Shown piece by piece: positions 31,332 through 48,163 of a DNA stretch of 61,126 nt; position 1 is the stretch's first letter, and each line of letters begins with the position of its first letter. The DNA is taken from positions 1 through 61,126 of the forward strand of contig MNYZ01000071.1 in the NCBI GenBank assembly GCA_001873365.1, given 5' to 3'. A model generated the notes under the pieces. The model worked only from the letters and a program-made list of their open reading frames with translations, had not been told where the DNA came from and made no database searches. The position numbers were made by a program, and so were the translations under genes. This DNA comes from Oscillatoriales cyanobacterium CG2_30_40_61. Its GTDB lineage: Bacteria > Cyanobacteriota > Cyanobacteriia > Cyanobacteriales > Microcoleaceae.

Positions 31332-33059
31332 TCAGGGTGAAGGAGAAACCCGTTGAGATAATTCTTTTATTGCTTGGTCGGTGCTTAAAAAAATGCGATC
31401 GCGTCCTAATTTATCCACAAATCCCACCTTTTCTAATTGATCAAAAACCGGGCCTTTAACCTCGGAAAGATAAAACTCAATTCCCATCTGGTGTAAATCC
31501 TCGATCAGACGTTGTAGGGTTTCTAAAGCACTGCCATCAATTGAGTTAATCCCACTACAGACTAATAGTAAATATTCAACTTCTTTCTGTTCTGTGACTA
31601 ATTTTAATAAATAGTCTTCTAAATATTTAGTATTCACAAAATATAAACTTTCATCAATTCTTATCGCCAAAATATGGGGGCTAGTTGTTACCGGATGTCG
31701 TAAAATATTGCGAAAATGTTCTGTATTTCCTACCCGTCCCACAATGGCAATATGGGGTTTACTGGTGCGAGCTAAATGTAAAATTAGAGAAATCAATACC
31801 CCAAAAATAATTCCCTGTTCCGCACTCGTTAGCAACACCGCCACGAAGGTACTAACCCAAGTAATGCCATCGAGTTTATTATAATTCCATAACCGTTTTA
31901 GGGTAGGAAAGTCGAGTAAATTTCCCACGGCAACTAAAATAATTGCAGCTAAACTGGTTTGCGGTAAATAATAAAATAAGGGGGTAAAAAACAAAACCGT
32001 TAACATCAAAAATAACGCCGTAATAATTGAGGCTAAGGCCGTATTTGCCCCGGCAGAAAAGTTAACCACAGAACGACTTAATCCCCCGGTTATGGGATAA
32101 CCTCCGGTTAAGGAAGCGGTGATATTAGCGGCTCCTAGGGCGATTAATTCTTGATTCGCTTCAACTTTTTGGCGTTTTTTACTAGCTAGAAATTGACCCA
32201 CGGAAAAGGCTTCCATAAAGCCCACAAAACTAATCGCTAAGGCAGAAGTTCCTAATAATTGAATTTGGTTCAAATCAAAATTAGGTAAAGTTAATGGTGG
32301 AAATCCTTTGGGAATTTCTCCGATCACTTTAACTCCAAACAATTGATCCAAATGTAATAACCCCACTAATATTGAACTTCCAATCACTACTATTAAAGGC
32401 GCGATTTTCGTAATCGGGATAATCAGAGATTCCTGAATTCCTTTTTGTTTTAGATATTGTCCTAATCCTTGATTGAAATATAATAATAGTGCTAAACTAA
32501 TAATTCCTAAACCAAAAGTTACTACATTTAGATTAGGAGTTTCTTTGAAAATAGCAGTAACTGTGCTAAAAAATGATTCTGTTTGAGGGATTTTAATTCC
32601 CAAAAGATGTTTAACTTGACTAAATCCAATTAAAATTGCCGCCGCACTAATAAACCCAGAAATTACCGCTTGACTCAGGAAATTAGCGATAAATCCTAAC
32701 CGAAAAATTCCGATTAAAAGTTCAATAATTCCTACTAATAATGCTAAGGTTAAAGCATATCCCCAATATTCCGGTGTGTTTTCCGTGGCGATCGCACTAA
32801 CTGCTGCGGCTACCATTAAAGAATCCACCGCCACTGGAGCCACAGACAGCATGGAAGCTGTTCCTAAACAGGCATAAACTATCTGAGGAAAAATGCTGGC
32901 ATAGAGTCCCACCTGGGGCGGTAAACCTGCCAGCATTGCATAGGCCATTCCCTGGGGAATTAACAAGCTCGCCACAATAATTCCGGCGGTTAAATCTCCG
33001 GTTAAATCTTCCCGTTTGTAATTTAATCCCCAGTTTAAAATCGGAAAATATTCCCGCAT
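31332..33059 (-). CDS. SulP-family anion permease with STAS domain
   Basis: A permease of about 575 residues. The SulP signature (LTGDLTAGIIVASLLIPQGMAYA), 10-12 membrane helices and a C-terminal STAS domain (LLVCSGINSIDGSALETL) are present. A frame reaching 33167 exists but would overlap the YgaP-like gene; the ATG at 33059 leaves a 10-base gap and is preferred. In this sulfide-oxidation context it may move sulfate or sulfite, but related proteins also carry bicarbonate. Confidence 0.85.
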   Translation of the reverse strand: MREYFPILNWGLNYKREDLTGDLTAGIIVASLLIPQGMAYAMLAGLPPQVGLYASIFPQIVYACLGTASMLSVAPVAVDSLMVAAAVSAIATENTPEYWGYALTLALLVGIIELLIGIFRLGFIANFLSQAVISGFISAAAILIGFSQVKHLLGIKIPQTESFFSTVTAIFKETPNLNVVTFGLGIISLALLLYFNQGLGQYLKQKGIQESLIIPITKIAPLIVVIGSSILVGLLHLDQLFGVKVIGEIPKGFPPLTLPNFDLNQIQLLGTSALAISFVGFMEAFSVGQFLASKKRQKVEANQELIALGAANITASLTGGYPITGGLSRSVVNFSAGANTALASIITALFLMLTVLFFTPLFYYLPQTSLAAIILVAVGNLLDFPTLKRLWNYNKLDGITWVSTFVAVLLTSAEQGIIFGVLISLILHLARTSKPHIAIVGRVGNTEHFRNILRHPVTTSPHILAIRIDESLYFVNTKYLEDYLLKLVTEQKEVEYLLLVCSGINSIDGSALETLQRLIEDLHQMGIEFYLSEVKGPVFDQLEKVGFVDKLGRDRIFLSTDQAIKELSQRVSPSP

Positions 33060-33069
33060 TCTTCCTAAC

Positions 33070-33609
33070 TTAAACACGCTGATTATAAGGTAATTTTGCC
33101 AATAACATTGCCATTGCACAGGTATTACTAATTCCGGCAAATAGCAATCCGGCTCCGACAAACCCACTTAAAAACAGGAAGTTGGGAGAAACAAATGCCC
33201 CCAATAAAGTTCCGGTTAAAATTAATGATCCGGCAACAATTTGTACCTGCCGCATGATACTAATGGGAGCATTTTTATTGATAACTGTTGGATATCCCGC
33301 TTGTTTCCAAGTATTTAATCCGCCCTGTAGGTGGCTCACCTGTTCAAATCCCGCTACCAATAATTTTTGTGCTGCTTGTCCACTGCGGTTACTGGTTTGA
33401 CAATACAAAACCACGGGTTTAGAGACATCCGAGGGTACATTGGCGGGGTCAAAGGTGGATAAAGGAACTAGAATTGATCCCGCAATATATTCCCCAGCGT
33501 GTTCAGAAGGTTCTCGAACATCAATTAAAGTAATTTTGTCTTGATCTAGCCATTGTTTTAAGGTTTCAGCATCAATGGACTGTAAGCGATCGCTAAGAGA
33601 TTTAACCAT
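33070..33609 (-). CDS. YgaP-like membrane rhodanese
   Basis: 179 residues. An N-terminal rhodanese domain has active-site loop CQTSNRS with C70 and LIDVREPSEHAGEYIAGS. A C-terminal DUF2892 pair of membrane helices (IVAGSLILTGTLLGAF, FLSGFVGAGLLFAGI) tethers it to the membrane. It transfers sulfane sulfur in the cytoplasm. It is co-directional with SulP (10-base gap) and downstream of the persulfide dioxygenase. Confidence 0.9.
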   Translation of the reverse strand: MVKSLSDRLQSIDAETLKQWLDQDKITLIDVREPSEHAGEYIAGSILVPLSTFDPANVPSDVSKPVVLYCQTSNRSGQAAQKLLVAGFEQVSHLQGGLNTWKQAGYPTVINKNAPISIMRQVQIVAGSLILTGTLLGAFVSPNFLFLSGFVGAGLLFAGISNTCAMAMLLAKLPYNQRV

Positions 33610-33665
33610 ATTTTTAGAATTGACAAATTAAGTAATTAGGATTAACCCGACCTATTGTATTATAC

Positions 33666-33700
33666 AACATCCTGATAGGATGTTTAAAGTGAAGCACTTT
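33666..33700. promoter_or_regulatory. Two small hairpins after the dioxygenase gene
   Basis: AACATCCT-GAT-AGGATGTT (33666-33684) and AAAGTG-AAG-CACTTT (33686-33700) are stacked between the dioxygenase stop and the YgaP-like gene. They may slow or stabilise the transcript; no T-run makes a clear terminator on the minus strand. Confidence 0.4.
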
Positions 33701-34388
33701 AATTTTTATTTCCACACTGTTGATTGGCGGGAACGGCTTCAGCAATTTTTTTGGGGTCGGGTAAATTTAAGTTATTCATCATGTCAATAAAACTGTCTCG
33801 ATCTTGACCCACAAAACGGGGATTAAATTGTTTTTCTTCTTCAATAGTAGAAACCATTCGTCCTTTATAGTCGTGACCAGGATAGACGGCGGTTTGATCG
33901 GGAAGGGTAAATAATTTTTGGGTAATATTATCGTAAAGTAACCCAGCATTTCCACTTTGAAAATCCGTGCGTCCACAGCCGCGAATTAATAAGGAATCCC
34001 CGGTTAAAATCCGATCGCCATTAACTAAATAAGCCACATGACTATCGGTATGTCCCCAAGTCGCGATCGCTTGAATTTTAACATCTCCAACCTCTAAGAT
34101 TTCTCCATCTTTAATCAAGCGATCAGCACAATTAACAATAGCGTTTTCTGGAACAACTCCCAAACATTTAGTTAGTTCTCGCAGTTTCCCAGTTCCAGTG
34201 ATGTGATCGGCGTGAACATGGGTTTCCAAACAATAGCGCAAGGTCAGTCCCAATTCTTGCAACAGGGTGAAATCTCGTTCCACTTGTTCCAATACGGGAT
34301 CGACTAAAACCGCCTCTTTGCTGGTTTCATCCGCGATCAGATAGGTATAGGTACTGGTTTCCGGGTCGAACAGTTGCCGAAAGAGCAT
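33699..34388 (-). CDS. ETHE1-type persulfide dioxygenase
   Basis: A 229-residue metallo-beta-lactamase fold. The metal motif THVHADH (H57, H59, D61, H62), GHTDSHVAYL, TGDSLLIRGCGRTDFQ and YPGHDYKGR are diagnostic of persulfide dioxygenases, which oxidise glutathione persulfide to sulfite with Fe(II) and O2. It is divergent from the Rieske/SQR genes and near two rhodaneses, fitting a sulfide detoxification pathway. Confidence 0.9.
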   Translation of the reverse strand: MLFRQLFDPETSTYTYLIADETSKEAVLVDPVLEQVERDFTLLQELGLTLRYCLETHVHADHITGTGKLRELTKCLGVVPENAIVNCADRLIKDGEILEVGDVKIQAIATWGHTDSHVAYLVNGDRILTGDSLLIRGCGRTDFQSGNAGLLYDNITQKLFTLPDQTAVYPGHDYKGRMVSTIEEEKQFNPRFVGQDRDSFIDMMNNLNLPDPKKIAEAVPANQQCGNKN

Positions 34389-34480
34389 GGTTTTTTACTT
34401 TTTTAGGGATCAGATTAACACAATAATACTACCATATAGTTTTATAAAAGTATAGATTTATGAAAAAAACGTAAAATTAC

Positions 34481-34509
34481 TTGACAAACATATAACCACG
34501 CATTATATT
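34481..34509 (+). promoter_or_regulatory. Sigma70-type promoter with overlapping operator dyad
   Basis: TTGACA (34481-34486), a 17-base spacer and TATATT (34504-34509) form a near-consensus promoter for the plus-strand sulfur genes. The dyad ATATAA-N7-TTATAT (34490-34508) covers the spacer and the -10. Sulfide-responsive ArsR-type repressors (BigR/SqrR class) bind AT-rich dyads of this kind; no such regulator is encoded in the window. Confidence 0.65.
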
Positions 34510-34573
34510 AAAGATAATTACATATTGTTCTCTCGCCTTAACTTCTCGGTATTTCTTTTATAAATGAACCAAA

Positions 34574-35107
34574 ATGGAAAATAGTATTCCTCTGGAAAAT
34601 CCGTCTATGTCCCGTCGTCAACTGCTAAATTTTCTCACAGGTGCAGTGGTGGCAACAACGGCGGGCGCAACCCTTTATCCCCTTGGCAAATATTTTCTCC
34701 CCCCCGTAGAAACCACAGAATGGGGTGGAATTTTAGCCAAAGATATCTTAGGAAATCTGATTCCCGCAGGCCAAATTCTGGCAGAAATCCCTGGAACTCG
34801 CGCCTTGGTTGCTGGGTTAGCCGGAGAACCAACTTATTTAACTATTGAAGAAAATGGTAGTTTAAGTCCGATTGGAATTGTTGATAATTGCACCCATTTA
34901 GGTTGTACATTTCCCTGGAATGGAGTTGACCAACAGTTTCAATGTCCTTGCCATGGTTCTCGTTATGACAGCGATGGCTCTGTATTGCGAGGGCCAGCAC
35001 CTTTACCCTTGAGATTAGTTCATGTTGAGGTTAAAGAGAATCAGATTTTGATTTCTCCCTGGACAGAATTAGATCCTCGAACTCAAGAAAAACCTTGGTG
35101 GGTTTAA
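34574..35107 (+). CDS. petC: Rieske iron-sulfur protein, PetC paralogue
   Basis: 177 residues. An N-terminal membrane anchor/twin-arginine-like region (SRRQLLNFLTGAVV) is followed by a Rieske domain with CTHLGC (C106, H108, C111) and CPCHGSRYD (C124, H127). It is the cytochrome b6f Rieske type. No petA, petB or petD lies nearby, so it is probably an extra PetC isoform. It is first in the plus-strand sulfur cluster, which suggests an alternative b6f subunit for sulfide-derived electrons. Confidence 0.88.
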   Translation: MENSIPLENPSMSRRQLLNFLTGAVVATTAGATLYPLGKYFLPPVETTEWGGILAKDILGNLIPAGQILAEIPGTRALVAGLAGEPTYLTIEENGSLSPIGIVDNCTHLGCTFPWNGVDQQFQCPCHGSRYDSDGSVLRGPAPLPLRLVHVEVKENQILISPWTELDPRTQEKPWWV

Positions 35108-35131
35108 TAACAATAAAAATCGGATTAAACT

Positions 35132-35566
35132 ATGTTTCAAAAAGTTACGGAATCCTTAGCAATTGGCAATCTAATTACCTCTGAAGAACTGCAAGAAATT
35201 GCGAAACAAGGGTATAGTACAATCATTGATTTATGTACACCCGTAGAAACCAAACAAATGCAGGTTGAGGAGGTTAAACAACTGGGATTCAATTATATTA
35301 GTATTCCGGTTTCTCTCCAAAACCTCAACTCAGAACTGTTAAAAACGTTTAGTAAAACAGTAAATACAGCATCTCAACCCGTTTATATTCGTTGTGCGTC
35401 GGGTTTGCGTGCGGGAGTGTTCACCTTGCTAACCTTAGCCGATCAACAAAATTGGACAGAACAGGAATATTTAGAACATCACCAAAAGTTAGGATTACAA
35501 CATAAACCCAACTGTCCTATTAAAGCATTTTCTGAGGAATATTTAGCTGATTTAAAATCCCCATAA
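35132..35566 (+). CDS. DUF442 phosphatase-like (Blh N-terminal type) protein
   Basis: 144 residues of the DUF442/beta-lactamase-hydrolase-like family, related to protein tyrosine phosphatases. The loop IRCASGLRAG has C88 and R93 (CX5R). In other bacteria this domain is fused to persulfide dioxygenase (Blh) or sits beside SQR genes. The separate dioxygenase lies 0.7 kb away on the other strand, so here the pair is split. A persulfide-transfer role is likely but unproven. Confidence 0.82.
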   Translation: MFQKVTESLAIGNLITSEELQEIAKQGYSTIIDLCTPVETKQMQVEEVKQLGFNYISIPVSLQNLNSELLKTFSKTVNTASQPVYIRCASGLRAGVFTLLTLADQQNWTEQEYLEHHQKLGLQHKPNCPIKAFSEEYLADLKSP

Positions 35567-35578
35567 ACCCAGAAAAAA

Positions 35579-35609: not shown

Positions 35610-35653
35610 GCTTGATTAATTTTAAAGTGTAAATAGCATCTTATCAAGATTAG

Positions 35654-35727: not shown

Positions 35728-36180
35728 ATGCGGAAAATTCTATTATTATTTGTTTTGATTTGGCTGCTAATTTCTCCTGTATTACTTTTCAACCCTTTGC
35801 CAGTATCAGCCGAGAATTTTAATTCAGAAATCACTCATTTTCTGGAAGAAATACCGCCGGGATATTATGCCGTAATCAAAACAGAGGATCTTCAAACTCT
35901 CAGACAACAGGGTAATTTGGTGATCATTGATGTTCGAGAACCTGCGGAATATGCCTCTGGTCATATTCCAGATGCTATCAATATTCCCTTGAGATTTTTA
36001 ACTAAAAATCTTGATAAAATTCCTAAAGATACCCCCGTAATTCTTTATTGTACAACCGGTTATCGGACAGCAATGGGAGTTATGGCTTTGGAGTTATTAG
36101 GATATGACAATATCAGTGGATTTCCTCCTAGTATTCAAGGATGGAAAGCCGCCGGGAACCCTGTAGAAATAGGGTTTTAA
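35728..36180 (+). CDS. Secreted rhodanese
   Basis: 150 residues. A hydrophobic signal peptide (about residues 1-28, ending PVSA) directs it out of the cytoplasm. The rhodanese domain has LVIIDVREPAEYASGHIP and active-site loop CTTGYRT (C108). It lies 42 bases upstream of SQR, so it is a candidate acceptor of SQR-derived persulfide on the lumenal or periplasmic side. Confidence 0.88.
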   Translation: MRKILLLFVLIWLLISPVLLFNPLPVSAENFNSEITHFLEEIPPGYYAVIKTEDLQTLRQQGNLVIIDVREPAEYASGHIPDAINIPLRFLTKNLDKIPKDTPVILYCTTGYRTAMGVMALELLGYDNISGFPPSIQGWKAAGNPVEIGF

Positions 36181-36222: not shown

Positions 36223-37539
36223 ATGGTTAAATCAACTGTAAAACCTTCTGAAGTTACCAGCGAAACTACAAATTTTAAACCCAATAAAACCCAGCATCAT
36301 CAAATCGTGATTGTCGGAGGAGGAGCAGCCGGAATTACCACCGCTTCTCTGTTATTTAATCATAATCATTCCCTTGATATTGCTATTATTGAACCCTCGG
36401 ATAAACATTATTATCAATCCGGTTGGACATTAACTGGTGGCGGTGTATTTGATCTGCAAGATACCATCAGAAATCAACGGGATGTTCTTCCCCGAGAAGC
36501 GACTTGGATTCAAGATAAAGTGATTCAGTTTGACCCGGATCAAAATCGGGTTGTGACTCTAACTGGAATTGAAGTTACCTACGAATATTTAATAGTTTGT
36601 CCCGGGATTCAAATAGACTGGGATAAGATTAAAGGACTTAAAGAATCTCTAGGAAAAGATGGTGTAACCACCAATTATTCCCCCCGTTACGCCCCTTATA
36701 CTTGGGAACTAATTCGTAATTTCAAGGGTGGAAATGCTTTATTTACTTTTCCCAACACCCCGATTAAATGTGGTGGTGCTCCTCAAAAAATTATGTATAT
36801 GGCGGATGATGCTTTCCGAGAAAAAGTGGGAGTCCGTGAACGCACTAACGTGATGTTTTTAACCCCTGGAAATAGAATGTTTGCTGTGCCAGAATATGCA
36901 CGTTTGTTAGAAAATGTTATCCAAAAACGAGATATTAAAGTTGAATTTCGGCATAATTTAAGCGAAATTCAATCAGCAACTAAAACAGCTATTTTCGATC
37001 TTTTAGATGATAATTGTAACGTCATCGATCAGGTTAGCTATCCCTACGATATGATTCATGTTGGCCCACCACAAAGTGCACCGGACTTTATTAAAAATAG
37101 TCCCTTAGCTATGCAGAATAATCCCTATGGTTGGGTTGATGTTGATGCTTATACCCTCCAACATCATCGATATCCTAATGTTTTTAGTTTGGGAGATGCC
37201 TCATCCGCCCCGACCTCAAAAACCGCCGCCGCCGTTCGCAGACAAGCACCCGTGGTGGTTAAAAATTTACTTTCTTTAATGGGATTAAAACCTTTATTAA
37301 GTCAATATGATGGTTATACTTGTTGTCCATTAATTACAGGTTATAATCGTGTAATTATGGCAGAATTTGACGGTTATCATGGAACGCCCGTATCAAGTTT
37401 TCCCCTAAATCCGATTAAAGAACGTGCGATTATGTGGGCAATGGAAGTTACTGGGTTTCCTTGGATTTATTGGAATCGAATGCTCAAGGGAAAAAAATTT
37501 GAGGGCGAGTATATTAAATTGATTAAGTGGAAACCATAA
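36223..37539 (+). CDS. sqr: Sulfide:quinone oxidoreductase, type II
   Basis: A 438-residue flavoprotein. The FAD-binding GGGAAGITTASLL, the type II block TFPNTPIKCGGAPQK with its cysteine (about residue 183), the FAD motif VFSLGDASSAPTSKTAAAVRRQAP and the CCPLITGYNRVIMAEF segment are all present. It oxidises sulfide, passes electrons to quinone and releases persulfide. It belongs with the adjacent rhodaneses, Rieske protein and dioxygenase in a sulfide oxidation unit. Confidence 0.93.
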   Translation: MVKSTVKPSEVTSETTNFKPNKTQHHQIVIVGGGAAGITTASLLFNHNHSLDIAIIEPSDKHYYQSGWTLTGGGVFDLQDTIRNQRDVLPREATWIQDKVIQFDPDQNRVVTLTGIEVTYEYLIVCPGIQIDWDKIKGLKESLGKDGVTTNYSPRYAPYTWELIRNFKGGNALFTFPNTPIKCGGAPQKIMYMADDAFREKVGVRERTNVMFLTPGNRMFAVPEYARLLENVIQKRDIKVEFRHNLSEIQSATKTAIFDLLDDNCNVIDQVSYPYDMIHVGPPQSAPDFIKNSPLAMQNNPYGWVDVDAYTLQHHRYPNVFSLGDASSAPTSKTAAAVRRQAPVVVKNLLSLMGLKPLLSQYDGYTCCPLITGYNRVIMAEFDGYHGTPVSSFPLNPIKERAIMWAMEVTGFPWIYWNRMLKGKKFEGEYIKLIKWKP

Positions 37540-37643: not shown

Positions 37644-37683
37644 TTGACAAATCTTTGCTTTTATATAACTATATAATTATATA
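37644..37683 (+). promoter_or_regulatory. TTGACA element and AT-rich palindromes before hdrC1
   Basis: TTGACA at 37644-37649 is followed by ATATAA-N8-TTATAT (37663-37682), which contains the perfect palindrome TATATAATTATATA (37670-37683). The dyad resembles the one at 34490-34508. A well-spaced -10 is not obvious. It probably starts the hdr transcript under the same regulator. Confidence 0.45.
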
Positions 37684-37731: not shown

Positions 37732-38439
37732 ATGGGCAAATTAGTTAACGAACTCAAAAGAGATATTCAATACCAACATGGGATGAATGCCTGCCTGAAC
37801 TGTGGCATCTGCACTGCGGTCTGTCCAGCAGCAGAAGTTTATGATTACTCTCCCAGAGAGGTGATGAACATTTGCCAAAATGAAGATGAGGAGTGGCTGG
37901 TGGAGTTACTTAAATCAGATAAAATCTGGTTTTGCGGACAATGTTATTCCTGTAAACCCAGATGTCCCAGAGGCAATAGCACCGCCGATGTGATTCTCGC
38001 TTTACGTCGCCTTTCCGTTCGTCATGGTTACTTTGCTGAGTCAGAAAAAGGTAGACAGCAATTATTTGCTAAACGGGTATTCGGAGAAAATATGCTCAAA
38101 CGAGGCTATACCTTAGTAGCAGAAAATATCACCCCTGAGCATTTCCCAGAACTCGGAGAAAATTGGGAATACTATTACGAACACATGGCCAAAATGCGGG
38201 AATGGTGGGGTGTCCCAATGGACTTAGAAAATAGCGCGGGTTCCCACCGAGTAATTCCCGAAAAAGACATGGATGAATTGCGGGCAATTTATCAAGCAAC
38301 TGGGGCTATCGAGTTAATGGATGCTGTGGAAAAAGGCATGGAAAAGAAACTCGGTAGCAAAAAAGAAGTTGAAAAGTTTTGGGATAATTGGGTAGAAACT
38401 GCTGATAGCAGAAACTACGAAATGGACGAAAATAAATAA
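37732..38439 (+). CDS. hdrC1: sHdr-type heterodisulfide reductase subunit C1
   Basis: 235 residues with two [4Fe-4S] motifs: CLNCGICTAVC (C21, C24, C27, C31) and CGQCYSCKPRC (C68, C71, C74, C78). A good GGAGGG ribosome site precedes ATG 37732. It is the electron-transfer subunit of an Hdr-like complex, and the downstream A, B, C2 and B2 genes show that this is the sulfur-oxidising (sHdr) layout rather than the methanogenic one. Confidence 0.88.
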   Translation: MGKLVNELKRDIQYQHGMNACLNCGICTAVCPAAEVYDYSPREVMNICQNEDEEWLVELLKSDKIWFCGQCYSCKPRCPRGNSTADVILALRRLSVRHGYFAESEKGRQQLFAKRVFGENMLKRGYTLVAENITPEHFPELGENWEYYYEHMAKMREWWGVPMDLENSAGSHRVIPEKDMDELRAIYQATGAIELMDAVEKGMEKKLGSKKEVEKFWDNWVETADSRNYEMDENK

Positions 38440-38450: not shown

Positions 38451-39296
38451 ATGCAGACCGTTAATAGTATCAGTAGTGTAAATAGTAGTCTGGATGCCAC
38501 CGAAACAGAAGGACTCATCTATATGCACGAAGAAGAAAAACTGGCGCATGATGTGTATGTTACCCTGTATGAACAGTGGGGATTGTCTATTTTTAATAAC
38601 ATCTCCAATAGCGAAGATAATCATGAAAATAAGATAGAAACCCTGCTCAATAACTATCAGATTGAAGATTCAGTTGGTGATAATCCCATCGGTGTTTTTG
38701 TCAATCCAGATTTACAACAATTGTACAATAATCTGATAGCGCAAGGAAGTCAATCCCTAACGGAAGCCTTAAAGGTAGGGGTTTTGATTGAGGAGACTGA
38801 CATTGCCGATTTACAAGAGCGAATTGCCCAAACAGATAACGCCGATATTCAACAAGTTTATCAACAACTTTTGAGTGGATCGAATAATCATCTAAGTGCA
38901 TTTACTTCTAACTTAACTGGCGAAACTGCTAATACTAACTCGTCTAATTATTCAAATAATCAGATTCAGGAAACAACAATAGATGACCCTCTGATTGGGG
39001 GAGGAAGTAATCAGAGCTTAGTTAGTAATGGCGGTGTTGCTAACTCAGGATATGCTGCAAATTTTCTCTTGGGTTCATTGGGTCAAATTAACAACGCTTG
39101 GTTATCGGGAATTGAGCCGATTTATCTGAATATTGATAACAGTTTTACAGCCCAAAACCAGCCGATTGATTTATCCGATATAGGAGGTATAATTAACTTA
39201 TCTACAAACAACTTAGAGACGGCTTTTTATTCCACTCAAGATCCGATGGTTGCTCTGAATACAATGCGGATAATAGCCAGAATGGGAGAGCGGTAA
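38451..39296 (+). CDS. DUF2202 ferritin-like protein inserted in the hdr operon
   Basis: 281 residues. The N-terminal ~150 residues are a DUF2202 ferritin-like domain (MHEEEKLAHDVYVTLYEQWG, NISNSEDNHENKIETLL) with metal-binding Glu/His. The C-terminal half is Ser/Asn-rich and of low complexity, with no recognised domain. It lies 11 bases after hdrC1 and 74 bases before hdrB1, splitting the usual hdrC1-hdrB1 pair. A second DUF2202 protein follows the hdr genes. Confidence 0.82.
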   Translation: MQTVNSISSVNSSLDATETEGLIYMHEEEKLAHDVYVTLYEQWGLSIFNNISNSEDNHENKIETLLNNYQIEDSVGDNPIGVFVNPDLQQLYNNLIAQGSQSLTEALKVGVLIEETDIADLQERIAQTDNADIQQVYQQLLSGSNNHLSAFTSNLTGETANTNSSNYSNNQIQETTIDDPLIGGGSNQSLVSNGGVANSGYAANFLLGSLGQINNAWLSGIEPIYLNIDNSFTAQNQPIDLSDIGGIINLSTNNLETAFYSTQDPMVALNTMRIIARMGER

Positions 39297-39370: not shown

Positions 39371-40417
39371 ATGAGAGTGACAAGAGAAAATATAGTTTGG
39401 GAAAAACACCAAAAACAGGTTCCAACGGTGGATGATGAAGGCGGAAAATTGTGGGGATGTTTCCGTAGTTGTTTTCTACAAAGTGCCGCTCCTTATACCG
39501 AAGGTATTGCCTATAAAATCTTAAAAGACGATTTAGGAATGGACTTGCGGGAAGCCGCCGGACATACTTCTTGTGGGGCAATTGGCTATCACGGAGATGT
39601 CACAACTATCGAAACCCAAATGGTGGTAGCCGCGCGAAATTTTTCCATAGCCCATTACGAATCTGGTGTTGATAATCTGTTCTCATTCTGTGTGACTTCC
39701 TTTGCTAATTACACAGAAATGATTAAACTCTGGGAAGAAGAACCAGAGTTGCGAGAATATACCGAAAAAACATTAAAAGAAACTACCGGACGGGAGTTTT
39801 GGATTCCCCATGTTTCCGGTGGTAGACCTTCTGTAGTTCATGCTTCTGATGTTTTCTATGCCAACCGATATAAATTAGCAGAAAAAGCTAAATATAGCCT
39901 CAAGGGAATTAAGGCAGTTGATCATATTGGATGTCACTATGGAAAAATATTTCCTGGTGAAGCCATGGGTGGGGTGGAATTCCCACAAACTTTAGTGGGG
40001 TTACTAGAAGCTTTTGGTGCAGAAATTGTTGATTATCCAGAACGTCGGCATTGCTGCGGAATGGGTTTCCGTCAATGTGCTTTTCCAGAAAACCGAGACT
40101 ATACCGCCAGTAGCGTTTATAAGAAAATGAAAAGTCTGAAAGAAGCCCATCCCGATTGTAATTTAATCTTAACTAATTGTCCGGGTTGTACAGTATTTTT
40201 AGATGCTGAACAAGGAACAATTAAAGAAGTTTTAGAAGAAGAATTTAATGTTAGCGTTTTGGATTACGCACAATTGACCGGGTTGATGTTAGGTTATGAT
40301 CCATTTCAAGATTGCGGATTTAATGCCAAAGCGGTTGAGATTGAACCTTTGCTCGATAAAATTGGCATTCCCTACGATAAATCTAAGACTGCTGAACAAC
40401 GCAGAAGACCGTTTTAA
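39371..40417 (+). CDS. hdrB1: sHdr-type heterodisulfide reductase subunit B1
   Basis: A 348-residue CCG-domain protein. The second CCG site is intact (HCCGMGFRQC, LTNCPGC). The first has only one cysteine (HTSCGAIG) where CCG is expected, plus GCFRSC at the N-terminus. B1 subunits of sHdr are known to differ from B2 in cluster ligands. It is preceded by TAGGAGAAAA and lies upstream of hdrA across a repeat-rich gap. Confidence 0.85.
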   Translation: MRVTRENIVWEKHQKQVPTVDDEGGKLWGCFRSCFLQSAAPYTEGIAYKILKDDLGMDLREAAGHTSCGAIGYHGDVTTIETQMVVAARNFSIAHYESGVDNLFSFCVTSFANYTEMIKLWEEEPELREYTEKTLKETTGREFWIPHVSGGRPSVVHASDVFYANRYKLAEKAKYSLKGIKAVDHIGCHYGKIFPGEAMGGVEFPQTLVGLLEAFGAEIVDYPERRHCCGMGFRQCAFPENRDYTASSVYKKMKSLKEAHPDCNLILTNCPGCTVFLDAEQGTIKEVLEEEFNVSVLDYAQLTGLMLGYDPFQDCGFNAKAVEIEPLLDKIGIPYDKSKTAEQRRRPF

Positions 40418-40424: not shown

Positions 40425-40545
40425 GGAAGATCCCCCCTAGCCCCCCTTAAAAAGGGGGGAAAGACACTCAAAGTTCTCCTTATTAAGGGGGGGGAAAGAC
40501 ACTCAAAGTCCCCCTTATTAAGGGGGATTTAGGGGGATCTCTTAA
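40425..40545. repeat. CCCCCTT..AAGGGGG repeats inside the hdr operon
   Basis: Three related segments (CCCCCCTTAAAAAGGGGGG, CTCCTTATTAAGGGGGGGG, CCCCCTTATTAAGGGGGATT) with a repeated GGAAAGACACTCAAAGT spacer. It is a dispersed palindromic repeat inserted between hdrB1 and hdrA, probably non-coding, and may affect transcript processing. Confidence 0.75.
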
Positions 40546-41678: not shown

Positions 41679-42275
41679 ATGGCAACAAAAGCAAAAAAAG
41701 GGAAAAAATTCGTCTTTGGTCTGAAAGCTGATCGCCAACTGGACGGCGATAAAATGAACTCCGATTTTATTAAGCAAGTTCTAGCTGAAGGCGGAAATGG
41801 TGCCGCGATCGCAGCCTGTATGCAGTGCGGTACTTGTAGCGGAGGTTGTACCAATATTGACCTGATGGATATGTCTCCTCGAACTCTGATTTTAATGGTA
41901 CAAAGAGGGGAATGGGAAAAGGTACTTAAAAGTAACGCTTTATGGATGTGTAGTTCCTGTTATATCTGTACCTCCCGATGTCCCCGTGGGGTGCGTCCTT
42001 CTGATGTAATTGAAGCGGTAAAAGCGATCGCAATTCGCCAAGGAATTGAAAATAATTCTACCCGCTTTAATCAGATATTTGTCGAATTAGTTCAGAAACG
42101 AGGCATCCTTTTTGAACCAGAATTAATGCAGAAATATGGCGGTTTACCAGCCATGATCGAACAGGCAGAATTAGGAATTAAATTAACCCTAAAAGGCAAA
42201 ATGTCGCCATTTCCAGAAAAAGTAAAAGACCCCCAAAAATTTAGTGAAGCATTAGAAAAGGCAAAAAAACCATGA
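41679..42275 (+). CDS. hdrC2: sHdr-type heterodisulfide reductase subunit C2
   Basis: 198 residues with CMQCGTCSGGC (C47, C50, C53, C57) and CSSCYICTSRC (C91, C94, C97, C101), two [4Fe-4S] clusters. The last four bases overlap the hdrB2 start (ATGA), indicating translational coupling. The usual 'hyp' gene between hdrA and hdrC2 is missing here. Confidence 0.88.
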   Translation: MATKAKKGKKFVFGLKADRQLDGDKMNSDFIKQVLAEGGNGAAIAACMQCGTCSGGCTNIDLMDMSPRTLILMVQRGEWEKVLKSNALWMCSSCYICTSRCPRGVRPSDVIEAVKAIAIRQGIENNSTRFNQIFVELVQKRGILFEPELMQKYGGLPAMIEQAELGIKLTLKGKMSPFPEKVKDPQKFSEALEKAKKP

Positions 42276-43141
42276 AGAAATATTCTTACTATCCCGGATG
42301 TAGTCTGCATACCACAGCCAAAGAGTTTGATATCTCAACAAGAGTGGTAATGCAGGAGTTAGGAATTGAACTAGAAGATCTCAAAGATTGGTCTTGTTGT
42401 GGTGGTTCCATAGCGGCGAGTGTTTCTCACGATGTTGGTATGGCAATGGCGGCGAGAAATGTCGCTTTAGCCCAAAAACAAGATCTCGATTTATTAGCAT
42501 CTTGTTCGGGGTGTTACAACAAGTCAGCAAGGGCACTTAAAGCATTAAAAGAACCCACCGAAAAAGATAGAATTATGGCGATTATGTCGGACATGGGAAT
42601 CGATGTTTCTGACTATAATATTCAGGTCAGAAATGTTGTAGATGTCCTAGTCAATGATATCGATCTTGCCCCTCGAATTAAAAAGCCGTTAACGGGTTTA
42701 AAAGTCGCCTGTTATTATGGTTGTCTGTTGACTCGACCCGCAGATATAACAGGTTGGGATTCGCCAATGTTCCCGACATCAATGGATAGATTATCGGAAA
42801 TTTGTGGGGCGGAAGTTGTTGATTTCCGGTCAAAAACTAAATGCTGTGGGGGCCCAATTTTAGTCTCTCAAAAAGATGTGGCTTTTGAATTGACTAAAAA
42901 ACTATTAGATGAGGCGCAATCTCTGGGTGCAGATTGTATTGTTTTGGCTTGTCCCCTGTGCGACACGAACCTAGAACTGCGCCAGTCGGATATTGAGAAA
43001 AAATACAATGTTTCTTACAATTTACCCATTCTCTATATCACTGAAATCATCGGATTAGCATTAGGAATTAAACCAGGAAAACTCGGTTTAGATAAACATA
43101 TTGTTTCAGCAAAACCCGTTCTCAAAAAATTGGGTTTATAA
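42272..43141 (+). CDS. hdrB2: sHdr-type heterodisulfide reductase subunit B2
   Basis: A 289-residue CCG-domain protein with both cluster sites intact: SCCGGS (42-46) with CSGC, and KCCGGP with CPLC. It forms the presumed catalytic noncubane clusters. It overlaps hdrC2 by 4 bases and ends the hdr set. The lipoate-binding and lipoate-assembly genes that normally follow are not present downstream. Confidence 0.9.
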   Translation: MKKYSYYPGCSLHTTAKEFDISTRVVMQELGIELEDLKDWSCCGGSIAASVSHDVGMAMAARNVALAQKQDLDLLASCSGCYNKSARALKALKEPTEKDRIMAIMSDMGIDVSDYNIQVRNVVDVLVNDIDLAPRIKKPLTGLKVACYYGCLLTRPADITGWDSPMFPTSMDRLSEICGAEVVDFRSKTKCCGGPILVSQKDVAFELTKKLLDEAQSLGADCIVLACPLCDTNLELRQSDIEKKYNVSYNLPILYITEIIGLALGIKPGKLGLDKHIVSAKPVLKKLGL

Positions 43142-43241: not shown

Positions 43242-43796
43242 ATGGACAACTACAAACCACAGAAAAACAATCCTAGTAGATTTCTAAAATACATAATAAC
43301 CGGAATTACAATCATCAGTAATGGCATCATTTTTCCCGGCTTTTACCCTTTAAAAGCAATGTCTGAAACCTCTTTAGATTCTAAGACGCAACAAGCGATG
43401 ATTGATTCAATTAATGATGAGTATTACGCCAGAGCTTTTTATAACGCCGTCATGGAAAAATTTGGTTCAGTTCGCCCTTTTAGCAATATTGTTCAGTCAG
43501 AAAATAACCATGTTAATCTTTGGGTGAATATATTTGCTAAGTACGGAATAGCTGTGCCTATTGATAATTTTGCCGGAAATATTAAAGTTCCCGACACCTT
43601 AAAAGCAGCCTGTAAAATGGGAGTAGAAGCAGAAATTGCTAACGTGCAAATGTATGATAAATTTCTCAACTTTGTCACCGAACCCGACTTAAAAGCTGCT
43701 TTTACCCAACTGCGTCAAGTCTCTCAAGAAAGGCATTTACCCGCCTTTGAACGCTGTCAAACTCAGCCCATCAGAGGTCAAGGTAGATCTTCTTAA
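43242..43796 (+). CDS. Exported DUF2202 ferritin-like protein
   Basis: 184 residues. A signal-anchor/signal peptide (ITGITIISNGIIFPGFYP) precedes a DUF2202 ferritin-like domain with INDEYYARAFYNAVMEKFGS and NIVQSENNHVNLW metal-ligand helices. It is the paralogue, on the export side, of the cytoplasmic DUF2202 protein inside the hdr operon. Confidence 0.8.
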   Translation: MDNYKPQKNNPSRFLKYIITGITIISNGIIFPGFYPLKAMSETSLDSKTQQAMIDSINDEYYARAFYNAVMEKFGSVRPFSNIVQSENNHVNLWVNIFAKYGIAVPIDNFAGNIKVPDTLKAACKMGVEAEIANVQMYDKFLNFVTEPDLKAAFTQLRQVSQERHLPAFERCQTQPIRGQGRSS

Positions 43797-44092: not shown

Positions 44093-44158
44093 GTCTGATT
44101 TTCCCGCGAATTTCCACAACTTTTAAATTCAACTAAATTATAAATAGGAGAACTTTCG

Positions 44159-44539
44159 ATGAAAATTGCCGTAGCTAGTCAAAATAAAAAATCGATCACC
44201 GAACATACCGGACACTGCCTGAAGTTTTGGATTTATGAAACCAAAGATGGCGAAATTATTAGTAAGAATTTGCTAGAATTGTCTCCAAAACAATCTTTTC
44301 ATGATAGTTCCGAAGACGAACCCCATCCTTTAGACGATGTACAGATTTTGATTTCTGGAGGTATGGGAAAAGGTTTAGTGCGACGACTAGAAAGAAAAAG
44401 AATTGAAGCTATTATCACCAAAGAAACCGATTTAGATAAAGCGGTTAATGCTTATTTTGATGGTTCTTTGATCACAGAAGAACCCGAATGTAACGAACAT
44501 GAACATCAGCATCAACACAAACATCAACATCACCATTAA
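44159..44539 (+). CDS. NifX/NafY-superfamily protein with His-rich tail
   Basis: 126 residues of the dinitrogenase iron-molybdenum cofactor-binding fold (MKIAVASQNKKSITEHTGHC, LISGGMGKGLVRRL). The last 20 residues are a run of His with Glu/Gln, a likely metal-binding tail. No nif genes are nearby, so it probably handles a metal or FeS precursor for the sulfur enzymes. Confidence 0.78.
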   Translation: MKIAVASQNKKSITEHTGHCLKFWIYETKDGEIISKNLLELSPKQSFHDSSEDEPHPLDDVQILISGGMGKGLVRRLERKRIEAIITKETDLDKAVNAYFDGSLITEEPECNEHEHQHQHKHQHHH

Positions 44540-44610
44540 TATGAATTGACAATTGGGAATTAAAATGCTCAGTATCAAGGTCATGAATCAAATTAAACTC
44601 TAGGTTTTTT

Positions 44611-44991
44611 ATGGCATCTATATCTTCAGTTAAACCCGGTTTTGTTAACCTATCCCCCTTGGAATTTACTCAGTTATCTCATCCCCCCCTATTAATTGAT
44701 GTTCGCAGTCAATTCGAGTACGCAACGGGTCATGCTCCTGATGCAGTTAATCTGAGTTTACCTCGAATCTTGATGGCAAACATTTCTGGAATTAGTAACT
44801 GGATTTTACCCCAATGGTTTCGAGATTTATCCAAAGAGCAACCCATTGCTATTATTTGTTTAACATCTCACCGCAGTCCTATTGCTGCTGACTGTCTAGT
44901 TAAGTTAGGATTTGCCCAGATCTTTAATATTACTGGTGGCATGGTAGAATGGCAAAAATTGAAACTAGAAACCGTAAAAGGTAAAGATTAA
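44611..44991 (+). CDS. Cytoplasmic rhodanese
   Basis: 126 residues with LLIDVRSQFEYATGHAPDAVNLS and active loop CLTSHRS (C83). It has no signal peptide or membrane helix. It is the third stand-alone rhodanese domain of the island, with the YgaP-like and secreted forms covering the other compartments. Confidence 0.85.
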   Translation: MASISSVKPGFVNLSPLEFTQLSHPPLLIDVRSQFEYATGHAPDAVNLSLPRILMANISGISNWILPQWFRDLSKEQPIAIICLTSHRSPIAADCLVKLGFAQIFNITGGMVEWQKLKLETVKGKD

Positions 44992-45028
44992 AAGTCTATG
45001 GGGAGGTATTTTATCTCCCTGTATCCTT

Positions 45029-45553
45029 GTGGAGAAACCGCACCGAAAAGGACTCAATAACAATTCAGAATTTGTTAATCACACTCTTGATAAAACTATG
45101 TGGGCTAGTTCAATTACCGCTTACTTTCATTACTTAGGTTTTATGTTAGCTTTTGCGGCTCTCACCGTGGAGTTTTTTAACTTAAAAAAAGAAATGACCC
45201 TCGATGAAGCCAAAAAAGTTGCTTTTGCCGATGGCGCTTATGGTATAGCTGCGACGATAATTTTGATTACAGGAATATTAAGAGTGATCTACTTTGGGAA
45301 AGGTAGCGATTACTACCTAAATAATCCCTTCTTTCAGGCTAAAATGGCAGTATTTATCCTCGTTAGTTTGTTTTCATTGTATCCAACATTTACGTTTATT
45401 TTGTGGTTTAAAGACTTACAAAAAGGTCAAATTCCTAGCCTAGAGATTGCCAAATTCAATCAACTTGCTTGGCTGATTAAAGGGGAGTTAATCTGTTTTA
45501 CTGTCTTGCCACTATTAGCCGCCGTCATGGCGAGAATTAGCCAATGGAGTTAA
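45029..45553 (+). CDS. DUF2214 membrane protein
   Basis: Up to 174 residues. DUF2214 membrane helices (SSITAYFHYLGFMLAFAALTVEF, YGIAATIILITGILRVIYFGKG) with a conserved His. The ATG at 45098 (MWASSITAYFHY) gives the usual family N-terminus and may be the true start; the longer form starts at GTG 45029. It overlaps the methyltransferase gene by 10 bases. Confidence 0.75.
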   Translation: MEKPHRKGLNNNSEFVNHTLDKTMWASSITAYFHYLGFMLAFAALTVEFFNLKKEMTLDEAKKVAFADGAYGIAATIILITGILRVIYFGKGSDYYLNNPFFQAKMAVFILVSLFSLYPTFTFILWFKDLQKGQIPSLEIAKFNQLAWLIKGELICFTVLPLLAAVMARISQWS

Positions 45554-46245
45554 ATCAAAAAAGGATGAAATTTTCCAACTTATCTCAAATTCAAAAACGT
45601 CTATTTGCCTGGGGAATGTCAAAGGCAAATGCCACCGATGGTAGCGCCATAGAACTGATTGACTGCCCTGATTATTCCACCTTGGCAGAACTCAAACAAG
45701 GGCTGTTAGGATCTGTAGAAGGAAAAGTATTAGAAATTGGCCCGGGTGCTGGCTCGAACCTCTCCTATTACCCAAAAGATATTGATTGGATAGGGGTTGA
45801 ACCCAATCCTTTTATGCACCAGTATCTCGAACAAGAAGCAGATAGTCAAGGATTAAAAAAGATAAAATTATTCTCAGGAAGTGCTGAAAAATTACCCGTT
45901 GAAAATAATAGTATTGATATTGTAGTCAGTACCCATGTTCTCTGTTCCGTCAACAATATTGATCACAGTTTACAAGAAATTAAACGGATTCTCAAACCAG
46001 GCGGAAGTTTCATTTTTTTAGAACACGTTGCCGCCGAATGTTGTACTTGGACACGCCGAACTCAGGATGGTATTGAACCCTTATGGAAAGTTTTATTTGA
46101 TAACTGCCATCCTAACCGAAACACTTGGAATGCCTTAGAAAATGCTGGATTTGAGTCAGTCAATTATCAGCAATTCAGCCTATCAATTCCCATAGTTAGT
46201 CCTCATATTGCTGGAGTAGCTAAGAAGGAGAAAACCCTTGATTAA
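45544..46245 (+). CDS. METTL7-like SAM methyltransferase
   Basis: 233 residues. SAM-binding motif LEIGPGAGSNLSYYP, then VEPNPFMHQYL, and the post-motif STHVLCSVNNID and FLEHVAAE. The pattern resembles METTL7A/B (TMT1), which are thiol methyltransferases that act on hydrogen sulfide and alkyl thiols. In this island an H2S or thiol-methylating role is plausible, but small-molecule methyltransferases are easily misassigned. A second Met at 45565 is possible. Confidence 0.7.
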   Translation: MELNQKRMKFSNLSQIQKRLFAWGMSKANATDGSAIELIDCPDYSTLAELKQGLLGSVEGKVLEIGPGAGSNLSYYPKDIDWIGVEPNPFMHQYLEQEADSQGLKKIKLFSGSAEKLPVENNSIDIVVSTHVLCSVNNIDHSLQEIKRILKPGGSFIFLEHVAAECCTWTRRTQDGIEPLWKVLFDNCHPNRNTWNALENAGFESVNYQQFSLSIPIVSPHIAGVAKKEKTLD

Positions 46246-46271
46246 TCAACAATTTAAACGGAGTGAAAATT

Positions 46272-47273
46272 ATGCAGCTTTCCAAAAATAATCTCCAAGA
46301 TAAAGTAAATCAAGTCTACGATGTCATTGTTATTGGTGGCGGTGCCGGAGGACTTTCTGCTGGTATTTACTTACAACGCTATCGCCTTTCTAGCTTAATT
46401 ATTGATAAAGGCAAAGCTCGATCTTTTTGGATGCAAGAATTACACAATTATTTGGGCTTACCCACCGATACACCAGGACGAGTTTTATTGCAACGAGGAA
46501 AGGAACATTATGACAGTTTAAATGGTGATTTCCTTAATGGTTTTGTCGAAGACGTGACCGACGAGGGAGACACCTTTGCCATCCGCGTAAAAGTCGGTAG
46601 ACAAAATAGTATTGATGCTGTTTTTAGAGCTAAATATATCATTGCTGCAAGCGGAATCATTGACTATTTGCCGCCTTTAGATGACATGAGAAATGTTTAT
46701 GACTATGCGGGTTATAACCTGCACGTTTGTATGGTTTGTGATGGCTATGAAATGATTGATAAAAAATGCGGTTTCTTTGCTGGGAGTGAAGCAGCTATTG
46801 AAGAAATGGTATTTAATTTAAGTTGGTTTACACCCTATATTACTATTTTTACTCATGGAGTATTTACTATTAGCGAACCCCTAAAAACTAAACTGCGAGA
46901 ACACGGTTATCCGGTCATAGAAACACCCATTCAACAGTTTTTAGGAAAAAATCATCAAATGACAGGAGTTGAGTTAATAGATGGAACAATTATAGAGTTA
47001 GAAACAGGCTTAATTTCCATGGGTTCTCATTATCACAGTACCTATCTTAAAGAAATTAACCTAGAACTCCAAGGAAACAATTTACTTACTGATAAAATGT
47101 GCCGAACTTCTCACCCCAGAATTTTTGCAATCGGGGATTTAAAAGTAGGGTTAAATCAAGTTATAATAGCAGCAGGAGATGGCGCTTTAGCTTCTACGGC
47201 TATTTGGCGAGAAATTCGTCGAGAAGTAGGAGCCAGACCTTGGTTAGAAAATCTTTCTAATCCTATGGATTAG
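46272..47273 (+). CDS. Thioredoxin reductase-like flavoprotein
   Basis: 333 residues. FAD motif GGGAGGLSAGIYL, redox CxxC in HVCMVCDGYEM, and the C-terminal IFAIGDLKVGLNQVIIAAGDGALAS are TrxR-like. The central NAD(P)H motif is degenerate (FFAGSEAAIEE), so it may use ferredoxin or another donor. The ATG at 46272 fits the CGGAGTG ribosome site better than a GTG at 46263. Confidence 0.85.
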   Translation: MQLSKNNLQDKVNQVYDVIVIGGGAGGLSAGIYLQRYRLSSLIIDKGKARSFWMQELHNYLGLPTDTPGRVLLQRGKEHYDSLNGDFLNGFVEDVTDEGDTFAIRVKVGRQNSIDAVFRAKYIIAASGIIDYLPPLDDMRNVYDYAGYNLHVCMVCDGYEMIDKKCGFFAGSEAAIEEMVFNLSWFTPYITIFTHGVFTISEPLKTKLREHGYPVIETPIQQFLGKNHQMTGVELIDGTIIELETGLISMGSHYHSTYLKEINLELQGNNLLTDKMCRTSHPRIFAIGDLKVGLNQVIIAAGDGALASTAIWREIRREVGARPWLENLSNPMD

Positions 47274-47335
47274 GGCTGAAGATATTGGCGATCGCTAAAC
47301 CATTAAAAAACCCCAAATTATAACTAATATATCTG

Positions 47336-48163
47336 ATGAAAAATTCGTTTTTGATTACTATTTTAGTAGAAAATACCGCCACTGGTAGAGGGTTATTAGG
47401 CGAACATGGACTATCTTATCTTATAGAAACAGGTGAGTCCCGAATTTTATTCGATACCGGACAGGGATTAGTATTAAAACATAATGCTCAACAGTTGGGA
47501 ATTTCTTTACAAAATTTAGATGCTGTTGTTCTCAGTCATGGTCATTACGATCATGCCGGGGGTTTAATCCAAGTACTAGAAGAATGTAATTCTACCAAAT
47601 TATTCCTACATCCATCCGCACTACAACCAAAATTTAGTAATCGAGGAGAAATTGGTTCTCCAATTCAGGATAAAGAACTGCTAACCCAGAAATTTAGTCA
47701 GTTAATTTGGACAGATAAACCCACAGAAATTATCCCTGGAGTATCCGTAACTGGTACAATTCCTAGGGTTAATTCCTGGGAGGATACAGGAGGTAATTTT
47801 TGGCAAGATTCCCAACATGATCAAGTTGATTTAATCTTAGACGATCAAGCATTATTTATTGATACACCCGAAGGTTTAGTGGTAATTTTAGGTTGCGCTC
47901 ATGCTGGGGTTATTAACACCTTAAACTATATTACAAAACTGACTGGAAAAGAAAAAGTTTATGCTATAATTGGGGGAATGCACCTGTTAAATGCCAGTAG
48001 AGAGCGCCTGCAAGCAACGGTAGAAACCTTGAACCAATATCAAGTGCAAATCATCGGTGCTAACCACTGTACAGGAATGACAGCCCTAGCTTTTTTATGG
48101 CATCATTTATTAGGAAAATGTATCAGTTGCTCCGTTGGTACTCGCTTAAAATTTGGTTTTTAA
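47336..48163 (+). CDS. MBL-fold metallo-hydrolase
   Basis: 275 residues with the metal motif SHGHYDHAGG, a downstream LGCAHAG and GANHCTG. It resembles the archaeal MJ0301/dihydropterin-phosphate-synthase-like MBL group. The reaction is unknown. It closes the sulfur island; the next gene is on the opposite strand. Confidence 0.8.
   Translation: MKNSFLITILVENTATGRGLLGEHGLSYLIETGESRILFDTGQGLVLKHNAQQLGISLQNLDAVVLSHGHYDHAGGLIQVLEECNSTKLFLHPSALQPKFSNRGEIGSPIQDKELLTQKFSQLIWTDKPTEIIPGVSVTGTIPRVNSWEDTGGNFWQDSQHDQVDLILDDQALFIDTPEGLVVILGCAHAGVINTLNYITKLTGKEKVYAIIGGMHLLNASRERLQATVETLNQYQVQIIGANHCTGMTALAFLWHHLLGKCISCSVGTRLKFGF

Follow-up and report, generated by a model that had tools for sequence, protein, structure and literature searches.

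The 61,126-nucleotide contig MNYZ01000071.1 of Oscillatoriales cyanobacterium CG2_30_40_61 (hereafter the window; contig 42 of a 4.82-Mb genome that is 99% complete) carries a five-gene cassette, hdrC1-hdrB1-hdrA-hdrC2-hdrB2, all genes in the same direction, within an island of sulfide-related genes at positions 31332–48163. The trees support in part our view that the cassette is a sister variant of the sulfur-oxidising Hdr system (sHdr), placed next to Desulfobacterota modules and probably not nested within sHdr. We give an even chance to the proposal that HdrC1-B1-A-C2-B2 forms a complex of this sister lineage, acts within a sulfide-responsive regulon and oxidises persulfide derived from sulfide:quinone reductase (SQR), using neither the lipoate protein LbpA nor O2.

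An earlier note on this DNA had listed an SQR, an ETHE1-type dioxygenase, three rhodaneses, DUF442, a Rieske protein, SulP and the five hdr genes in the island, and each was recovered in place as an open reading frame (ORF) of the expected family (Table 1). The short HdrA (356 aa) and the sHdr-like gene order that it described also hold, HdrA being collinear with the solved chain 6TJR. Contamination was ruled out, as the GC content of positions 32001–48000 (0.37–0.41) is like that of the remaining window and the relatives lie within the same order.

Conservation and kinship of the cassette

The cassette occurs in 19 distinct genomes from 14 genera, all in the cyanobacterial order of the window. 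When the window HdrA was used as a query, a close homologue (69–100% identity) was found in 14 of 98 relatives, its own genome included; the match in G017 covers residues 1–239 only, and the remaining matches are short ones to the FAD domain. Across the phylum, 14 of 386 genomes gave a match at E ≤ 1e-30, 13 to a short HdrA and one, in G102, to a long fused HdrA of 34–35% identity. Eighteen of the 19 genomes retain the order C1-B1-A-C2-B2, a recurrence that points to more than chance, and 17 copies appear intact. The hdrB1 and hdrA genes of G093 are broken, and neither hdrC2 nor hdrB2 was found within the stretch fetched from G017. A 20th copy, in the 73% complete genome G005 (SQR at 96%), is cut off where the contig stops inside an hdrC1 that is matched in two frames. 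In Picosynechococcus PCC 7003 (G167) the cassette and an SQR lie together on a plasmid (NZ_CP016476). HdrB1 is strongly constrained, with a mean column identity of 90% (12 rows, each from a different genome and one of them a G008 paralogue); the figure for HdrA is 71% (11 rows, one being 6TJR).

Nine proteobacterial loci served as sHdr references for the trees; seven have a GcvH-like gene downstream of hdrB2 and the other two end too early, while L150, L153 and L154 were counted as sHdr because a GcvH-like gene lies nearby in each. The scan for references gave at least 20 loci, none cyanobacterial among the matches listed, and says nothing on absence. Type II, archaeal, Aquificota and Chloroflexota sHdr were left out of the trees, as were rows under 200 aa (HdrA, HdrB) or 70 aa (HdrC), including the broken G093 hdrB1 pieces. 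The HdrA trees omit the spurious row L048_12859 (branch 9.3) and the G102 rows, the final one also the other long rows, and the L166 row of the HdrC1 tree was shortened by its first 100 residues.

In the HdrB tree the cyanobacterial B1 proteins form a clade with two B1 proteins from the phylum of a Desulfobacterales bacterium (support 98/93), and 12 sHdr B1 proteins join this clade (100/99); four Firmicutes-phylum B1, all B2 and a methanogen HdrB fall outside. The HdrC1 tree gave the same picture (99/94 for cyanobacteria with the Desulfobacterales phylum, 98/94 with sHdr), and HdrA united the cyanobacteria with the same two Desulfobacterales-phylum modules (94/83). The raw scores of HdrC1 favour sHdr as well, at 119–132 bits compared with at most 42 bits for the first HdrC of Firmicutes. 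Among 297 genomes from the Desulfobacterales phylum, the HdrB1 profile scored 305 and 280 bits (next 93) in the HdrC1-B1-A modules L165 (in G1361) and L166 (in G1233), the nearest non-cyanobacterial relatives found; its best match was 114 bits among 349 genomes sampled from the phylum of Thioalkalivibrio and 116 bits, namely sHdr locus L150, among 299 genomes from the phylum of an uncultured Firmicutes bacterium. HdrA residues 3–335 align end to end with residues 2–343 of 6TJR (349-aa chain of Hyphomicrobium sHdrA, 34% identity), and the extra parts of the 643–671-aa methanogen chains are missing. A methanogen-type Hdr was rejected from the shortness of HdrA and the position in the HdrB trees; the raw scores give no argument against it.

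The active-site motifs were compared in a 73-row HdrB alignment that contains 34 B1-clade rows: 20 cyanobacterial (counting the G006 and G008 paralogues, not G093), 12 sHdr and two Desulfobacterales-phylum. HdrB1 is the proposed catalytic subunit of sHdr (PMC11582611). Residues Tyr73, His74, Thr109 and Ser110 (window HdrB1 numbering) are present in all 34 B1-clade rows and in none of the 39 other HdrB rows, Ser110 occupying the position of the final cysteine in the N-terminal CxxC. In the N-terminal CC pair, one cysteine has given way to Ser67 in every cyanobacterial (20) and sHdr (12) row, and the two Desulfobacterales-phylum rows have Thr and Cys at this position. The cassette HdrB1 shares the remodelled N-terminal CCG motif of sHdrB1, a feature derived here and not a published criterion. 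No cysteine of the C-terminal motif (Cys188, Cys228, Cys229, Cys270 and Cys273) is missing from the 20 cyanobacterial or the two Desulfobacterales-phylum rows, whereas position 270 is an aspartate in all 12 sHdr rows. A structural model of HdrB1 from an 11-row alignment (pLDDT 76.6, pTM 0.82) best matched methanogen HdrB (Foldseek E 4.7e-18), and its residues 35–37, 69–77 and 190–205, which touch the cluster sites, have a pLDDT under 50. Two congeners have a solitary second hdrB1 paralogue at a distance of ~6.5 kb from their cassette (L041:19054 onward; L042:322–1392, 86% identical to window HdrB1).

Sulfide genes and a shared palindrome

The link between the cassette and sulfide genes drawn in the earlier note is borne out at 14 of the 19 loci, where the flanks that were fetched include an SQR. 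Two dissimilar types are involved, labelled in this analysis type II (SQOR-like, 10 loci) and type I (the other SQR, 4 loci). The type I enzyme of PCC 7003 scores 333 bits with a solved Aquifex-like SQR, and the SQRs of G048, G017 and G162 match it at 490–598 bits; in the window SQR, the two cysteines that we take to be redox-active both align with human SQOR. An accident of one genus was rejected as an explanation, since the nearness recurs in other genera with the dissimilar type. No SQR was seen in the fetched flanks of the other five loci, of which that of G080 begins 351 bp from a contig end that cuts its upstream side. Twenty relatives had been hand-picked as hdr-lacking, leaving 19 after G005 was found to hold the start of a cassette; an SQR is encoded somewhere in all 19 hdr-bearing genomes but in only 10 of these 19 relatives (Fisher p 0.001, kinship not corrected). 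An SQR at least 65% identical to that of the window was found in 12 of 39 genomes, namely 11 hdr-bearing ones and G005. The G162 locus also carries TauE/SafE, of the sulfite exporter family.

The palindrome ATATAAC-N6-GTTATAT, first noticed in the window's genus (six genomes) and then tested elsewhere, is centred 35–214 bp before hdrC1 with at most two mismatches in 15 of the 19 genomes and with three in G002; for G091 the distance is counted from an assumed hdrC1 start that lies 216 bp into the mechanical ORF. The palindrome precedes hdrC1 in 11 of the 14 genomes outside the genus, is missing there in G084, G279 and PCC 7003, and is present before hdrC1 in all five hdr loci that lack a nearby SQR. 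When the 350-bp upstream regions were shuffled, none of 200 shuffles matched the fuller pattern as well in 13 of 19 cases. The other contigs of the window genome contain 2 sites with at most two mismatches and 34 with at most three in 398,856 bp, and under a Markov model 0.75 and 7.3 such sites, respectively, would be expected per 61 kb; given these background counts, single three-mismatch copies mean little.

Copies of the palindrome also precede other sulfide genes. Within the islands, they lie before ETHE1 or Rieske genes with at most two mismatches in G006, G002, G008 and G005 (one mismatch in G005) and with three in G000 and G003; two island sites with at most two mismatches (L043:13847 and L052:9328) have neither gene nearby. 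Six of 14 further SQR/ETHE1 stretches have a copy with at most two mismatches within 300 bp before an SQR or ETHE1 gene. These are the SQR/Rieske loci of G091 and of the hdr-lacking genomes G133 and G116, the ETHE1 stretch of G061, the SQR stretch of G097, where the core is perfect, and that of a second SQR in G084, which lies ~18 kb away from the hdr cluster there. The other eight (G009, G001, G070, G086, G060, G017, G048 and G090) have none, although G060 has copies over 1 kb away and G048 and G090 have three-mismatch copies in place. No copy was seen at the additional SQR gene on contig 53 of the window genome. We read the palindrome as a putative operator through which a sulfide regulon would be controlled. 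Two islands (L132 and L051) have ArsR genes nearby, and the ArsR operators given in the sections of PMC10509353 and PMC12423496 that describe them bear no resemblance to the palindrome. Promoter and terminator counts did not exceed those of shuffles (16 versus 15.6 and 5 versus 5.6).

Table 1 Features of the island in the window.
Feature	Position	Strand	Evidence or remark
SulP anion transporter with STAS domain	31332..33167	-	Pfam Sulfate_transp 386 bits, STAS 65 bits
Rhodanese, membrane anchor YgaP-like	33070..33609	-	Pfam
ETHE1-type persulfide dioxygenase (metallo-beta-lactamase fold family, MBL)	33699..34388	-	PDB 4ysb 285.8 bits (solved bacterial homologue), human ETHE1 222.7 bits
Palindrome, weak copy (3 mismatches) between the divergent ETHE1 and Rieske genes	34426..34445	.	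Not significant alone
Rieske protein, PetC-like	34574..35107	+	Pfam TM_PetC 68 bits, Rieske 37 bits
DUF442 / BLH phosphatase-like	35132..35566	+	Pfam
Rhodanese	35728..36180	+	Pfam
SQR, SQOR-like	36223..37539	+	Human SQOR 384 bits, full-length alignment
Putative operator ATATAAC-N6-GTTATAT	37663..37682	.	1 mismatch; centre 59 bp before hdrC1
DNA of the putative operator			ATATAACTATATAGTTATAT
hdrC1	37732..38439	+	Fer4 dicluster domains; clade with sHdr HdrC1
DUF2202 gene between hdrC1 and hdrB1	38451..39296	+	Pfam 163 bits
hdrB1	39371..40417	+	N-terminal CCG site remodelled, C-terminal site intact; model fold resembles methanogen HdrB
hdrA, short form, 356 aa	40594..41664	+	Aligned to 6TJR
hdrC2	41679..42275	+	Domain content
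hdrB2	42272..43141	+	Two CCG motifs, both complete
Weak DUF2202 relative after hdrB2	43242..43796	+	Pfam 19.9 bits (cut-off 22); recurs in genus
Downstream group: NifX-like, rhodanese (44611–44991), DUF2214, methyltransferase, TrxR-like flavoprotein, MBL hydrolase	44159..48163	+

The tie of the downstream group to hdr is less constant across loci, and relatives of its TrxR-like flavoprotein, of the rhodanese and of the Rieske protein also occur at SQR loci unlinked to hdr in other genomes. The DUF2202 gene lies within the cassette in four of the five wholly read loci of the window's genus. A repeated C/G-rich element (cccccttattaaggggg) occupies positions 40430–40545, between hdrB1 and hdrA. 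In four loci a small membrane protein is encoded in or just after the cassette (L041:12409–12717, L042:7513–7830, L044:15411–15701 and L046:10316–10675; DUF4405 by Pfam in L041 and by similarity in the others), which was not found in the window and is a candidate membrane electron acceptor. Downstream of one cassette (L044:16388–19111), a 907-aa protein with a cNMP-binding domain, a sigma-54-activator-like AAA domain and Fer4_5, with relatives in three congeneric loci, is a candidate regulator.

Function of the cassette and rival explanations

In the mechanism that we propose, SQR would oxidise sulfide and hand the sulfane sulfur to a small thiol, as its SQOR type suggests. When O2 is present, ETHE1 would convert the persulfide to sulfite; when it is absent, a rhodanese or the persulfide itself may deliver sulfur straight to HdrB1, for which LbpA would not be needed. 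The single complete cluster site of HdrB1 would be the reaction centre at which sulfur is turned into sulfite, and electrons would pass through HdrC1, HdrC2 and HdrB2 to the HdrA flavin and then to NAD(P) or the quinone pool. The analysis itself shows the gene content, its conservation, the tree position, the motif changes, the lack of a detectable LbpA and of space for Hyp, the nearness to SQR and the sharing of the palindrome. The direction, substrate, product, carrier and acceptor of the reaction, the operator function and the assembly as one complex are inferred, as is the O2-independent sHdr activity put forward in the earlier note.

A number of observations weigh against this oxidative, sHdr-like function. 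The direction of the reaction is not readable from sequence and is the weakest step, as the intact C-terminal site of HdrB1 would also be expected of a persulfide or disulfide reductase. The placement of B1 involves long branches and few references, and in AU tests run before the Desulfobacterales-phylum rows were added, trees that joined the Firmicutes B1 to the cyanobacterial B1 (p 0.28) or to the sHdr B1 (p 0.096) were not rejected. The other subunits are less clearly related to sHdr. The wider group of HdrA with sHdr reaches only 76/45, a weak deep placement, HdrB2 lies outside a group made up of sHdr and Firmicutes B2, and HdrC2 groups with the Firmicutes C2 of unassigned cassettes (98/88). 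Raw scores lean the same way: 75–93 bits for HdrB1 with named sHdrB1 compared with 99.5 for methanogen HdrB, 212–240 bits for HdrA with sHdrA compared with up to 269 for long HdrA, and 168–192 bits for HdrB2 with sHdr (full-length rows) compared with 201–256 for Firmicutes. The kinship with sHdr suggested in the earlier note stands for HdrB1 and HdrC1, as sisters of sHdr and not as members placed inside it; the check that it proposed on HdrA and HdrB2 gave the weak and outlying positions above, and the contrary outcome that it named, a grouping with methanogen or fermentative Hdr, was not seen for HdrB1 or HdrC1, with HdrA weak and HdrC2 on the Firmicutes side.

The missing partners of sHdr weigh in the same direction. 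LbpA is reported as essential for Hdr-type sulfur oxidation (PMC6067878, PMC10332631) and accompanied sHdr in every case of the survey by Cao et al. 2018; it is essential in the genetically tested sHdr system and yet was not found here. Besides the 19 hosts, a GCV_H profile was run on nine sHdr controls and three further genomes, 31 in all. Each of the 19 hosts has one match below 1e-25, all others having E ≥ 4e-4, whereas at least two matches pass the 1e-25 threshold in eight of the nine controls and a single one, next to the hdr genes, in the last. The absence of LbpA remarked on in the earlier note thus extends by this profile to the whole window genome, with its single match in 4.82 Mb, and to all 19 hosts; poor assembly was ruled out as the cause, 18 of the 19 being at least 90% complete. 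Of the other genes that the note wished to see sought, dsrE was likewise not found in the window genome and tusA is present on another contig. Among the hosts, the DsrE profile was silent in 15 of 19, the window genome included, and one unlinked TusA copy was found in 18 and two in G002; these two profiles identified no replacement sulfur carrier for LbpA. Between hdrA and hdrC2 there are 14 bp in the window and ≤237 bp at the remaining loci, compared with ~0.3–0.9 kb in sHdr controls, which leaves no room for a hyp gene there; no search aimed at the Hyp protein was made. In the definitions set out in PMC11582611, the H gene is required in sHdr types I and II and etfAB in type II, and with respect to Hyp and LbpA the cassette falls outside the published definition of sHdr.

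These absences could be explained if the cassette were an ordinary sHdr in which the role of LbpA is taken by the housekeeping GcvH, by another lipoyl protein or by an LbpA that is too divergent to be detected. Each host does have one GcvH, and B1 and C1 are akin to sHdr. We nevertheless regard this explanation as improbable, because the GCV_H profile finds LbpA in all nine controls but no second match below 4e-4 in any of the 19 hosts, Hyp has no room, DsrE is mostly missing and the cassette is a sister to sHdr. A reductive complex, in which photosynthetic electrons would reduce persulfides, polysulfides or mixed disulfides accumulating under sulfide, protecting thiols and not harvesting electrons, is a serious contender although we think it unlikely. 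It follows the same regulon logic, and the complete C-terminal CCG site, the failure to find LbpA and a raw similarity to methanogen HdrB and HdrA at least equal to that with sHdr all fit it; on the other hand, HdrB1 has the derived N-terminal changes of sHdrB1, and the ETHE1, TauE and SulP neighbours suit an oxidised product.

The possibility that the cassette is a general electron-transfer module with no sulfur role, present in the island by chance, draws on L166, one of the two nearest non-cyanobacterial relatives, which has no recognisable sulfur gene around it (a further point against sulfur oxidation) and lies among polysaccharide genes, and on the five loci with no SQR in their flanks. 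We consider it very unlikely, as those same five loci bear the palindrome before hdrC1 and the palindrome also precedes the unlinked SQR loci of G097 and G091. Flavin-based electron bifurcation like that of methanogen HdrABC is hardly to be expected: the C-terminal half of HdrA does score higher with methanogen HdrA (205–214 bits) than with sHdrA (160–185 bits), which also tells against the placement beside sHdr, but HdrA aligns end to end with 6TJR and is devoid of the additional methanogen parts.

Comparison with known systems and significance

Type I sHdr (shdrC1B1A-hyp-C2B2 with LbpA; Hyphomicrobium, Thioalkalivibrio) has in common with the cassette the gene order, the short HdrA, the N-terminal remodelling of HdrB1 and the HdrC1/HdrB1 clade, and differs from it in Hyp, LbpA and, mostly, DsrE, as well as in residue 270 of HdrB1. 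Type II sHdr (C1B1A-H-B3 with EtfAB) shares the C1-B1-A core, whereas C2 and B2 are separate genes in the cassette and its island has no etfAB. In both Desulfobacterales-phylum modules Cys270 is intact, as in the cassette. The Firmicutes-phylum hdrCBACB loci (L151, L155 and L156) share the five-gene order, the short HdrA and the lack of hyp, and no GcvH-like gene was found in the 16–17 kb fetched for each; their HdrB1, however, has a classical N-terminal CCG motif, and their B1 and C1 belong to different clades. Methanogen HdrABC shares the HdrB fold but has a long HdrA, one B and one C, and lies outside the B1 clade.

The surroundings of the two Desulfobacterales-phylum modules differ. In L165 (1079–10843), an hdrC1-B1-A-C2 operon is accompanied by a CCG membrane protein, a Fer4/NrfD fusion and a Phs/Ttr/Dms-like molybdopterin oxidoreductase, possibly a sulfur-compound respiratory complex tied to the Hdr module. 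In L166 (6447–11757), a fused HdrC2-HdrB2 and an amidohydrolase are found in a polysaccharide biosynthesis region.

In the open literature, as far as its accessible portions extend, we found no description of the cassette as a cyanobacterial sulfur system, although such genomes may already be listed in the GTDB-wide sHdr tables that underlie PMC10332631 and PMC11582611. A recent mat study credits its cyanobacterial metagenome-assembled genomes with SQR alone (PMC13384644), and in an Antarctic Phormidium hdrA2/B2/C2 were filed under methane metabolism, with electron bifurcation considered (PMC8002359). We tentatively suggest, at somewhat less than even confidence, that oxygenic phototrophs possess an LbpA-independent lineage of Hdr-type sulfur oxidation beside sHdr, with a complete HdrB1 site, persulfide supplied directly by SQR chemistry and a sulfide switch through ATATAAC-N6-GTTATAT, by which sulfide would be oxidised past elemental sulfur without oxygen.

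The reaction of cyanobacterial SQR is usually written as the conversion of sulfide to S0, and an older report is said to describe the oxidation of sulfide to thiosulfate by Microcoleus, an activity that might thereby gain a testable enzyme. A conserved sHdr relative without LbpA would separate the role of the core complex from the contribution of the lipoyl carrier, and Picosynechococcus PCC 7003 provides a named strain for testing the cassette.

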